Assembly: GCA_019689975.1 (NCBI GenBank)
Contig: JADGGK010000013.1
Coordinates: 1 to 56,528 of the forward strand
Source: Pseudolabrys sp.
GTDB taxonomy: Bacteria; Pseudomonadota; Alphaproteobacteria; Rhizobiales; Xanthobacteraceae
DNA length: 56,528 bases
Reading direction: 5' to 3'
Shown: in pieces, positions 43,433 through 46,851 of the stretch
Layout: every line of letters begins with the position of its first letter
Position numbering within the stretch: the stretch's first letter is position 1
Notes under the pieces: model-generated
The model's input: the letters and a program-made list of their open reading frames with translations, nothing else
Told to the model about the DNA's origin: nothing
Databases searched by the model: none
Position numbers and translations under genes: made by a program

Positions 43433-43495
43433 GGACGCGCACGGGCGGCCACAAAAAAAGTTAAGGAAGTTTTCGCGCGCGGCGAATTTTCTCTC

Positions 43496-43523
43496 TTGCA
43501 TCGCGCGAAAAATTTGTTATGTC
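43496..43523 (+). promoter_or_regulatory. Possible promoter of the ornithine decarboxylase leader
   Basis: TTGCAT (43496-43501) and TATGTC (43518-43523) are 16 bases apart in an AT-rich patch that interrupts the GC-rich surroundings. The spacing is slightly short. Transcription would begin near 43530 and produce a leader of about 400 bases. Confidence 0.4.
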
Positions 43524-43549
43524 GGCTATTGCCCAATTTCGCACGTGCC

Positions 43550-43921
43550 TGTGGCCGTGTGTCGGTCGGTAGGTAGCGGGACAAGAGGCCCGCCAGCCGC
43601 CTGGAGAGAGACGCTAGATCCTCTTCAAGAGATCTGACCGGCAGCTGGAGGCGAAACCAGCACACCCTGCTCTCAGCAGGGGACGCGGCTTAAAGCAACG
43701 ACGATCGGGCTTCCTTGGTCTCTGCCGGCCTCCACCACCGGCGCGGGTCACCGAAGAGGCTTGTTCATCTTGCCAGCAGTGCGGCGGGGTCTCCCCTCCA
43801 AGCCAAGGCAGCTATTGCGGTGTAAGAGTTGACGGGCTCAGTGCGTCCCCATCGCGCACCGCTCTCCAGCTCCTAAACCGCGGCAAGCGGACGGCTCAAC
43901 TCCGTCCCTTCGAGCTGGAGA
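43550..43921 (+). promoter_or_regulatory. speF-type leader RNA upstream of ornithine decarboxylase
   Basis: A long non-coding leader precedes ornithine decarboxylase, the position of the alphaproteobacterial speF RNA motif. It contains several stable hairpins: agatcctc/gagatct (43616-43635), ccctgct/agcaggg (43665-43681) and acgg/ccgt near 43892-43905. The anti-Shine-Dalgarno ctccagctc (43864-43872) is perfectly complementary to gagctggag (43912-43920), which contains the ribosome site. An identical agctggag copy at 43643-43650 can compete for the same anti-Shine-Dalgarno strand. This suggests a translation switch, possibly responding to polyamines or ornithine. Confidence 0.7.
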
Positions 43922-43929
43922 ATGCGCCA

Positions 43930-45060
43930 ATGACCGAGCGCATCCGCGAATTCCTCCGCAAGCGGCGCGAGGACGGCCCCTGCCTCGTGGTCGATCTCGA
44001 CGTCGTGCGCGACAACTACAATGCCTTTGCCAAGGCGCTGCCCGACACGCGAATCTTCTATGCCGTGAAGGCGAACCCGGCGCCCGAGGTGCTTTCGCTC
44101 CTCACCCGACTCGGTTCCTGCTTCGATACGGCCTCGGTGCCGGAGATCGAAATGGTGCTCGCCGCCGGGGCCACGCCTGACCGCATATCCTACGGCAATA
44201 CCATCAAAAAGGAGCGCGACATCGCCCGCGCCTATGCCCTGGGCGTGCGGCTCTACGCGGTCGACTGCAAGGCCGAGGTCGACAAGATCGCGCGCGCGGC
44301 GCCGGGCTCCAAAGTGTTCTGCCGCATCCTGTCGGATTGCGTGGGAGCGGAATGGCCGTTGTCGCGCAAGTTCGGCTGCGAGCCCGCCATGGCGGTCGAG
44401 GTGCTCGAGCATGCCCTCAAGTCCGGACTCGAGCCCGTCGGCGTGTCGTTCCATGTCGGTTCGCAGCAGCGCAACCAGCATGCATGGGACCGCGCGCTCG
44501 CCTCGGCCGCCGCGGTGTTCCGTGACTGCAGCGAGCGGGGAATCAACCTCACCATGGTCAATCTCGGCGGCGGCTTCCCGACCCGCTACGTCAAGAACGT
44601 GCCCTCGGTGAAATCCTACGGCACCGCGATCTTTCGCGCGCTGCGCAAGCATTTCGGCAATCGCATCCCGGAGACGATCATCGAACCCGGCCGCGGCATG
44701 GTCGGCAACGCCGGGGTGATCGAGGCGGAGGTCGTCCTCGTTTCCAAGAAGAGCGAGGAGGACGACGTGCGCTGGGTCTATCTCGACATCGGCAAGTTCG
44801 GCGGCCTCGCCGAAACGGCCGACGAGATGATCCGGTACCCGATCTACACGGCGCGCGACGCCGACGAGAAGGCGCCCTGCGTGATCGCGGGACCCACCTG
44901 CGATTCGGTCGACATCCTCTACGAAAAGCAGCCCTATGCGCTGCCGATAACGCTCGAGATCGGGGACAAGGTGCTGATCGGCGGCACCGGCGCCTACACC
45001 GCGACCTACGCGTCGGTGGCCTTCAACGGCTTTCCACCCCTGAAGACCTACCACATCTGA
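43930..45060 (+). CDS. Ornithine decarboxylase (type III PLP fold, alanine-racemase-like)
   Basis: The 376-residue enzyme decarboxylates ornithine to putrescine. PLP binds Lys47 in FYAVKANP, Gly-rich phosphate loop residues lie in MVNLGGGFPTRY, and the cross-dimer catalytic Cys324 is in GPTCDSVD. Other family segments are ISYGNTIK and SFHVGSQ. It has the size of alphaproteobacterial eukaryotic-type ODC, with possible side activity on lysine. The ATG at 43930 follows ggag (43917-43920) at 9 bases, the site that the leader can sequester. Homospermidine synthase follows 360 bases downstream. Confidence 0.93.
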   Translation: MTERIREFLRKRREDGPCLVVDLDVVRDNYNAFAKALPDTRIFYAVKANPAPEVLSLLTRLGSCFDTASVPEIEMVLAAGATPDRISYGNTIKKERDIARAYALGVRLYAVDCKAEVDKIARAAPGSKVFCRILSDCVGAEWPLSRKFGCEPAMAVEVLEHALKSGLEPVGVSFHVGSQQRNQHAWDRALASAAAVFRDCSERGINLTMVNLGGGFPTRYVKNVPSVKSYGTAIFRALRKHFGNRIPETIIEPGRGMVGNAGVIEAEVVLVSKKSEEDDVRWVYLDIGKFGGLAETADEMIRYPIYTARDADEKAPCVIAGPTCDSVDILYEKQPYALPITLEIGDKVLIGGTGAYTATYASVAFNGFPPLKTYHI

Positions 45061-45420: not shown

Positions 45421-46851
45421 ATGCAGGATTGGCCAATCCACGGACATATCGACGGACCGATCGTCATGATCGGGTTCGGCTCCGTCGGCAAGGGCACTTT
45501 GCCGCTGATCGAGCGTCACTTCACTTACGACAAATCGCGCTTCGTGGTCATCGACCCCGAGGACAAGGACCGGCATCTCCTCGACGAGCGCGGCATCCGT
45601 TTCATCCACGAGGCCGTCACCCGTGCGAACTACCGCGCCCTGCTCACGCCCTTGCTCACCGCCGGCGGGGGACGCGGATTTTGCGTCAATCTTTCGGTCG
45701 ACACGTCCTCGCTCGACCTCATGGAGCTGTGCCGCGACCTTGGTGCGCTTTATATCGATACCGTCGTCGAACCCTGGCCAGGGTTCTATTTCGATTCCCG
45801 ACTCGGGCCGGCGGCGCGCTCGAATTACGCCTTGCGCGAGACCATTCTCGCCGCGCGCCGCAAACGGCCGGGCGGCACCACCGCGGTGAGCTGCTGCGGG
45901 GCCAATCCGGGAATGGTGTCCTGGTTCGTCAAGCAGGCGCTGATCAACATCGCCTCCGACCTCGGTCTTAGGATCGACGAACCGAAGACGCGCGAGGAGT
46001 GGGCCCGCCTGGCCATGCGGCTCAACATCAAGGGCATTCACATCGCCGAGCGCGACACGCAGCGTGCCAAATATCCGAAGCCGATAGAGACCTTCGTCAA
46101 CACCTGGTCGGTCGAAGGCTTCCTCGCCGAGGGCCTGCAGCCGGCCGAGCTCGGCTGGGGCACGCATGAAAAATGGATGCCGAAGAACGCGCGCACGCAC
46201 AGAACGGGCTGCAAGGCCGCGATCTATCTGACGCAGCCGGGGGCCAATACGCGGGTGCGATCGTGGACGCCAACCGCCAAGGCGCAGTACGGCTTCCTCG
46301 TGACGCATAACGAATCGATCTCGATCGCCGATTACTTCACGCTGCGCGAGGGCCGGCGCGTGGTGTACAGGCCGACCTGCCATTACGCCTATCACCCGTG
46401 CAACGACGCCGTGCTGTCGCTGCACGAGCTGTTCGGGCAGGCCTGCAAGCGGCAGCCCTTCATGCATATCCTGGACGAAAACGAGATCGCCGACGGCATC
46501 GACGAGCTCGGCGTCCTGCTCTACGGGCATAAAAAGAACGCCTACTGGTACGGTTCGCAGCTCTCGATCGAGGAGACCCGCAGCATCGCGCCCTACCAGA
46601 ATGCGACCGGCCTGCAGGTGAGCTCGGCCGTGCTCGCCGGCATGGTCTGGGCGCTGGAAAATCCCGAGGCCGGGATCGTGGAGGCGGACGAGATGGATTA
46701 TAAGCGGTGCCTCGCGGTGCAGAGGCCCTATCTCGGCCCGGTCATCGGCCAATATACCGACTGGACGCCGATCACCGACCGACCGGGCTTGTTCCCGGAA
46801 GACATCGACACAAGCGACCCCTGGCAGTTCAAGAACGTGCTCGTGCGCTGA
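45421..46851 (+). CDS. hss: Homospermidine synthase
   Basis: The 476-residue NAD-dependent enzyme converts putrescine to sym-homospermidine, the typical polyamine of many alphaproteobacteria. The N-terminal cofactor motif is PIVMIGFGSVGKGTLPLI. The conserved VSCCGANPGMVSWFVKQALINIA and IKGIHIAERDTQRAKYPK segments and the total length agree with the Blastochloris viridis enzyme. The start ATG at 45421 gives exactly that length; further upstream codons do not. Together with the preceding ornithine decarboxylase it forms a complete ornithine-to-homospermidine route. Confidence 0.96.
   Translation: MQDWPIHGHIDGPIVMIGFGSVGKGTLPLIERHFTYDKSRFVVIDPEDKDRHLLDERGIRFIHEAVTRANYRALLTPLLTAGGGRGFCVNLSVDTSSLDLMELCRDLGALYIDTVVEPWPGFYFDSRLGPAARSNYALRETILAARRKRPGGTTAVSCCGANPGMVSWFVKQALINIASDLGLRIDEPKTREEWARLAMRLNIKGIHIAERDTQRAKYPKPIETFVNTWSVEGFLAEGLQPAELGWGTHEKWMPKNARTHRTGCKAAIYLTQPGANTRVRSWTPTAKAQYGFLVTHNESISIADYFTLREGRRVVYRPTCHYAYHPCNDAVLSLHELFGQACKRQPFMHILDENEIADGIDELGVLLYGHKKNAYWYGSQLSIEETRSIAPYQNATGLQVSSAVLAGMVWALENPEAGIVEADEMDYKRCLAVQRPYLGPVIGQYTDWTPITDRPGLFPEDIDTSDPWQFKNVLVR

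Follow-up and report, generated by a model that had tools for sequence, protein, structure and literature searches.

A conserved predicted pseudoknot links the ar45 and speF elements in the leader of an alphaproteobacterial ornithine decarboxylase gene

The window, by which we mean the whole stretch of 56,528 nt that was analysed, carries a gene for an ornithine (or lysine/ornithine) decarboxylase, here called ODC, that is preceded by a leader and followed by a homospermidine synthase gene (Table 1). The closest solved relative of the ODC product is the lysine/ornithine decarboxylase 5gjm, and the product of the neighbouring synthase gene is expected to be homospermidine. A putative promoter was recognised by eye; its columns are weakly conserved (CTT and TA) over 113 leaders, and a scan of the window region with an E. 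coli-type consensus reported no promoter. Transcription is expected to start near 43530.

An earlier note had placed a speF leader in front of ODC and suggested a search with the Rfam speF covariance model. This search bore the placement out: the speF match exceeds its gathering cutoff, as does a match to the ar45 sRNA family eight bases upstream, and the ODC gene (COG0019) lies directly 3’ of speF, which is the genomic context of a speF leader. That the two halves belong to a single leader is not a new idea. In the available text of Corbino et al. 2005 (PMC1273637) speF is described as a single extended element that begins close to the transcription start, and therefore includes the ar45 part, and its last 150 nt were given no structure; Rfam split this leader into two.

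Table 1. Features of the ODC locus, with window coordinates, strand and the evidence for each
Feature	Position	Strand	Evidence
Putative promoter, CTTGCA (43495-43500), 17 nt, TATGTC (43518-43523)	43495..43523	+	By eye
Rfam ar45 (RF02347) half of the leader	43531..43714	+	44.8 bits, gathering cutoff 40
ar45 hairpin GCUGG-AGGCGAAA-CCAGC, holding the second copy (43643-43650)	43644..43661	+	Pattern scan, 149 leaders
Pseudoknot 5’ strand GAUC, in the ar45 3’ strand	43703..43706	+	Covariation, permutation, tree, alignment, out-of-order leaders
GGGC and interrupted U tract (UUCCUU), in the place of the ar45 terminator	43707..43716	+	Read from sequence
Rfam speF (RF00518) half of the leader	43723..43877	+	39.1 bits, gathering cutoff 37
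P1 hairpin GCCGG-CCUCCACCA-CCGGC, UCCA loop	43724..43742	+	Changes on both sides at 7/7 pairs; 90.5% of cells paired
P2 hairpin GGC-UUGUUCAUCUU-GCC, loop with pseudoknot 3’ strand GUUC (43763-43766)	43758..43774	+	P2 invariant in 40/40
P3 hairpin GGCGGGG-UCU-CCCCUCC	43783..43799	+	80% of cells paired; 4/7 pairs change on both sides
P4 hairpin GUGCGU-CCCCAUC-GCGCAC	43841..43859	+	Window shuffle test, 0/200 as high
Anti-SD strand UCUCCAGCUC	43863..43872	+	Strand of the earlier note plus one base; genus conservation not beyond chance
P5 hairpin GGACGG-CUCAACU-CCGUCC, just before the SD	43889..43907	+	35/36 genus rows listed
SD strand GAGCUGGAGA (GGAG at 43917-43920)	43912..43921	+	
Ornithine (or lysine/ornithine) decarboxylase (ODC)	43930..45060	+	Pfam PF02784 + PF00278
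Homospermidine synthase	45442..46851	+	phmmer E 1.2e-262 to 4xq9, 4plp (homospermidine synthase)

The leader is widespread in the order and stays with its gene. The survey of the order covered 249 genomes: 116 contained speF (94 with a score above the cutoff), 101 ar45 (90 above it), 122 ODC and 127 homospermidine synthase. When the matches were paired by eye, 114 of the 122 genomes with ODC had speF next to it on one contig. Two speF matches lay away from ODC (G033 and G052) and scored about 26 bits, under the cutoff. At family level 78 of 80 genomes contained speF. A model of the joined ar45-speF core, R1, was built from 40 sequences and matched 12 of 289 genomes of the class, each time beside ODC by coordinates, with an ODC match in 96. 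All surveys of more than 40 genomes (order, family and class) used stricter filters, with which weak matches were lost. The window itself scores 92.6 bits with R1, which is not independent evidence because R1 includes the window. At the cutoffs used, 15 genomes of the order, seven of them in family f29, had a homospermidine synthase match and no ODC match; four f40 genomes with homospermidine synthase and without ODC gave weak matches of 31-33% identity.

A link between the two Rfam halves emerged from column covariation. All column pairs were ranked on 83 non-redundant sequences, drawn from the 105 of 114 aligned leaders in which P4 had been called. The first and third ranks belonged to P4, and the second and fourth to B20/B91 (UA 38, GC 23, AU 11, GU 5) and B21/B90 (AU 52, UA 18). 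On the ar45 side these columns fall in the linker that separates GCAACGAC from GGGC, and on the speF side in the loop of the GGC...GCC hairpin. The sixth-ranked pair, B90/B95, is a non-pairing combination (14% paired), and since such column pairs also rank high, relatedness adds to the covariation signal. Relatedness of the genomes underlies all leader counts given here, which come from a comparison of about 150 leaders. Linker and loop exist in matching variants such as GUAG/CUAC, GGUG/CACC, GGA/UCC, GUAA/UUAC and GAAGC/GUUUC. In the window the partners GAUC and GUUC form three pairs, G-C, A-U and C-G, around a U.U mismatch.

In the structural alignment A1, which comprises 40 leaders (42 representatives were picked after leaving out 7 of the 114 aligned leaders, and 40 were used), 84.6% of the cells of the pseudoknot helix were paired and three of its four pairs changed on both sides; sliding the whole A1 structure lowered pairing from 87.2% to at most 52.7%. 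In several UUGUC or UUGUU rows A1 sets the P2 loop one base off, so that its pseudoknot counts come out too low. Because of this misplacement an alignment-free permutation was made, in which 154 of 185 sources could be parsed and relatedness was ignored. The 56 distinct linker/loop combinations reached three Watson-Crick pairs in 95% of cases versus 51% when permuted, four Watson-Crick pairs in 48% versus 20%, and four pairs including G-U in 73% versus 60%. The 95% is a favourable figure, since the 31 of 185 sources that were missed include the weaker-pairing GAUC/GUUC and GAA types. These types are contained in the 74 rows of the ODC tree, where 69 rows had three Watson-Crick pairs in a row and the best tree required at least nine linker changes, a count of which well-supported branches force fewer. 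Independent-pairs tests on the same tree used only 3, 1 and 2 pairs.

Eight of the 12 genomes matched by R1 lie outside the order, and seven of these, from five families, had a readable locus. All seven leaders, which had been absent both from feature discovery and from the building of R1, had both features: the pseudoknot, as GGUG/CACC or GUAG/CUAC, and P4, closed by a CUCCA loop. Altogether, these comparisons show ar45 and speF to be joined, beside ODC, by a conserved predicted long-range contact. A conserved pseudoknot between the ar45 3’ strand and the P2 loop implies that the two halves would fold as one RNA.

The speF half is predicted to contain further hairpins. P1 varies in all of its pairs, and P2, being invariant, allowed no covariation test. 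In P3 one inner pair is open in 22 of 40 leaders. Among 75 non-redundant copies of P4 both sides vary at each of the seven pairs, a result that leans towards structure because the windows were picked by their stem. The shuffle test served as control: of 144 leaders, a set without the four second-type leaders described below, which lack P4, 122 had a P4 stem that scored above shuffles at p<0.05. Of the 136 leaders with a P4 match, 112 had the best one 60-95 nt 5’ of the ATG. Its loop follows the pattern NUCCANN, with CUCCA in most relatives and CCCCAUC in the window. The comparison thereby shows P3 and P4 as further conserved elements in the predicted fold of the joined leader. A P5-like hairpin (score of at least 12, scored without a shuffle control) was present in 35 of the 36 genus rows listed, with differing stem letters.

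Pairing of the P4 loop with the Shine-Dalgarno (SD) region was evaluated in 103 of 134 leaders. The loop paired better than composition-shuffled loops (mean energies -5.83 kcal/mol versus -5.02 kcal/mol), but in these leaders it showed no preference for its own SD over those of others (p=0.21; 0.52 for an 8-nt loop and 0.10 for a wider region). We therefore do not claim the P4 loop as an anti-SD element.

Four genus relatives (G258, G253, G286 and G288) carry a more divergent ODC of 71-74% identity with a leader of its own (L212, L213, L214 and L215). These leaders keep a GGA/UCC pseudoknot and are without the P1 UCCA loop and without a clear P4. The divergent gene is a second copy in G258 and G253, about 4 kb from the first, and in G286, on another contig; in G288 it is the only ODC match found. 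Three genomes of other genera of the family have two speF matches about 4 kb apart on one contig (G298 C39, G338 C190 and G362 C89), resembling the ODC tandem of G258 and G253; in G298 and G362 both matches are below the Rfam cutoff.

Our preferred reading, to which we assign a probability of roughly 0.6, is that ar45 and speF together make up a single 5’ leader, about 400 nt long, that acts in cis to regulate ODC, mainly at translation, and of which an early stop would yield the ar45 sRNA. RNA polymerase would stop at GGGC and the U tract, giving this sRNA, or would read on, and the pseudoknot could form in the read-through RNA only. The speF half would then gate ribosome access to ODC via the P4-P5-SD stretch as expression platform, and control of ODC by the leader would represent feedback from the polyamine pathway. 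The covariation evidence itself speaks for structure, not for regulation.

One way in which such a leader could work is as a riboswitch, with the joined ar45-speF RNA binding homospermidine, or another untried polyamine, and closing the SD. This would be consistent with highly conserved blocks outside the covarying stems in addition to the pseudoknot, and with the finding, matched by eye, that of the 122 genomes of the order with ODC, 112 also have homospermidine synthase. In most symbiotic rhizobia homospermidine and putrescine are the only soluble polyamines. However, six ligands, among them ornithine, putrescine and spermidine, are reported in the available text of PMC1273637 not to bind the A. 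tumefaciens RNA from -400 to +3, which argues against a polyamine riboswitch and also removes support from ornithine, which the earlier note had considered as the sensed ligand. Homospermidine is absent from the ligands reported in that text. A second point against it is that, according to the accessible portion of PMC13293326, growth of A. tumefaciens needs spermidine, whereas homospermidine apparently plays no role in growth or biofilm. We regard the riboswitch as rather unlikely. Its most specific form, in which ar45-speF would be one pseudoknot-closed homospermidine receptor of about 300 nt whose early stop gives a trans-acting sRNA and whose read-through gives a ligand-gated ODC messenger, appears distinctly doubtful; if it were true, the earlier ligand tests would have been negative for want of the right ligand.

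Regulation by a leader is also compatible with a protein or other trans factor whose binding to the UCCA-loop hairpins P1 and P4 would block the SD or free it. UCCA is common to the loops of both hairpins. It is missing from the P1 loop in 5 of 151 leaders, all of which also lack P4, whereas by the same rule only 13 of the 146 leaders with the P1 UCCA loop are without P4. Yet the five leaders represent about two lineages, and in seven of the 13 a GUCUCCACC hairpin is in fact present and only falls under the score limit. We know of no protein that acts on P1 and P4, and hold a trans factor to be a tentative possibility with the odds against it.

The 3’ end of ar45 bears on a different explanation, that a terminated, trans-acting ar45 sRNA is the main product and speF a mere read-through tail. 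An uninterrupted U6 follows GGGC in 86 of 113 leaders. At 43711-43716 the window reads UUCCUU, as do a few other lineages; most genus leaders have UUCUUU there. A terminator scan detected none at the ar45 end in the window, the sole terminator-like site lying at 43472-43486, before the leader; as the U tract is interrupted in this genome, termination is probably weak here. Elsewhere, the available text of PMC7717549 reports independent expression of ar45 in Bartonella and S. meliloti, and its co-precipitation with Hfq in S. meliloti, which favours the sRNA as main product. The Bartonella data, in which speF belongs to a longer, read-through transcript beside the separate ar45, also accord with our preferred reading. 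Against this stand the conservation of P4 and of the pseudoknot 3’ strand beyond the terminator and the fact that the element stays with ODC, so that we judge this explanation quite improbable.

The earlier note had moreover proposed a switch in which two partners, the SD region and a distant copy of it, compete for one strand. Its letters and coordinates are correct (ctccagctc at 43864-43872, gagctggag at 43912-43920, agctggag at 43643-43650, ATG at 43930), and the local helix even reaches 10 bp, 43863-43872 with 43912-43921, covering GGAG of the SD. Dinucleotide shuffling gave a perfect helix of at least 9 bp with the SD region in 1.0% of 2000 cases when the 100 nt upstream were shuffled and in 5% of 500 when the 370-nt leader was, while an 8-mer of the SD region recurred in 7.7% of 1000 shuffled leaders. 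From these rates the local helix is somewhat above chance and the distant 8-mer copy not clearly so. RNA folding predicted the SD bases 43917-43920 to be paired with a probability of at least 0.86 in three fold windows, with 43918 pairing mainly to 43866 (probability 0.83 to 1.0), a result that agrees with the sequestration by 43864-43872 that had been proposed.

Conservation in the genus did not extend to this helix. In 25 non-redundant leaders out of 32 genus rows, SD/anti-SD pairing showed no excess over shuffles (mean score 13.9 versus 13.2, median p 0.53), with p<0.05 in five leaders including the window. As we read the 32 genus rows, the best contiguous helix fell over the SD GG, opposite a CUCC-type segment, in 17 of them, which is suggestive, but shuffled segments did about equally well. 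The second copy, 43643-43650, lies in a hairpin of its own within ar45, where it forms the 5’ arm, and for this hairpin a scan of 149 leaders returned GCCGG/CCGGC in 71, GCUGG/CCAGC in two, GCGGG/CCGGC in two and no match in 74. The two GCUGG/CCAGC cases are the window and its relative L216, and therefore probably reflect one coordinated change. Hence the speF identity, the position before ODC and the predicted sequestration of the SD endure from the proposed switch, and the competition between two partners does not: compensatory change at both pairings was not seen in the 25 genus leaders or the 149 scanned. We reject this switch. It is favoured by the exact 8-base copy, by the window's helix of 9 to 10 bp and by the CUCC-type segments that about half of the genus rows place opposite the SD, but the location of the copy inside its own hairpin, its frequency among shuffles and an SD helix conserved no further than chance make it very improbable. 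Folding suggests that SD sequestration may be real in this genome, though not demonstrated as a conserved device.

A leader peptide sensing ornithine or arginine, as in enterobacterial speF, is scarcely credible: such control is known for the unrelated Salmonella speF leader (available text of PMC6386406), and an ATG ORF of at least 8 codons occurs somewhere in 90 of 113 leaders, and one ending near the ODC start in 46 of the 113, but no conserved upstream ORF was found in the aligned part of the 113 leaders (the unaligned 3’ stretch lay outside this conservation test), where the starts common to over half of the leaders are mainly GTG or TTG and their ORF lengths vary widely.

Against the reading of ar45 and speF as one cis-acting ODC leader we count the chance-level conservation of the anti-SD helix, the U.U mismatch, the lack of a detected terminator at the ar45 end in the window, the P4-loop result of p=0.21 and the six ligands reported not to bind the A. 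tumefaciens RNA. In this genome such a leader would probably terminate weakly, and the lineage-specific 10-bp anti-SD helix would keep the SD closed by default.

The leader can be set beside several known systems. That of Salmonella speF acts through a leader peptide. It resembles the control proposed here in that a leader acts on an ornithine decarboxylase gene (accessible text of PMC6386406), and differs from it in that no conserved peptide was found in the aligned part here. The spermidine riboswitch class shares with our proposal bacterial RNA control by a polyamine; it is by title a variant of the SAM aptamer, and the part of PMC10853860 available mentions neither speF nor homospermidine. 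Like the ar45 sRNA (RF02347), the 5’ half scores over the cutoff, at 43531-43714. However, ar45 has been described as a separate sRNA, whereas here its 3’ strand is predicted to pair with the speF loop and its U tract is interrupted. A further likeness is to Rfam speF (RF00518), an orphan element located before ODC in alphaproteobacteria as far as the available text of Corbino et al. 2005 (PMC1273637) describes it, for which the 3’ half scores over the cutoff. Unlike the leader considered here, the Rfam speF model begins after ar45, and its structure line, of which a few positions are hidden, contains no pseudoknot, P3 or P4. Relative to Rfam and to the available text of PMC1273637 these three elements may be new, and parts of the model may be in print elsewhere. 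The orphan riboswitch candidate speF dates from 2005; base pairs that tie it to ar45 and can be mutated and restored, together with a ligand, homospermidine, that is missing from the reported tests, make the question directly testable. Either Rfam half studied alone may miss the working RNA.
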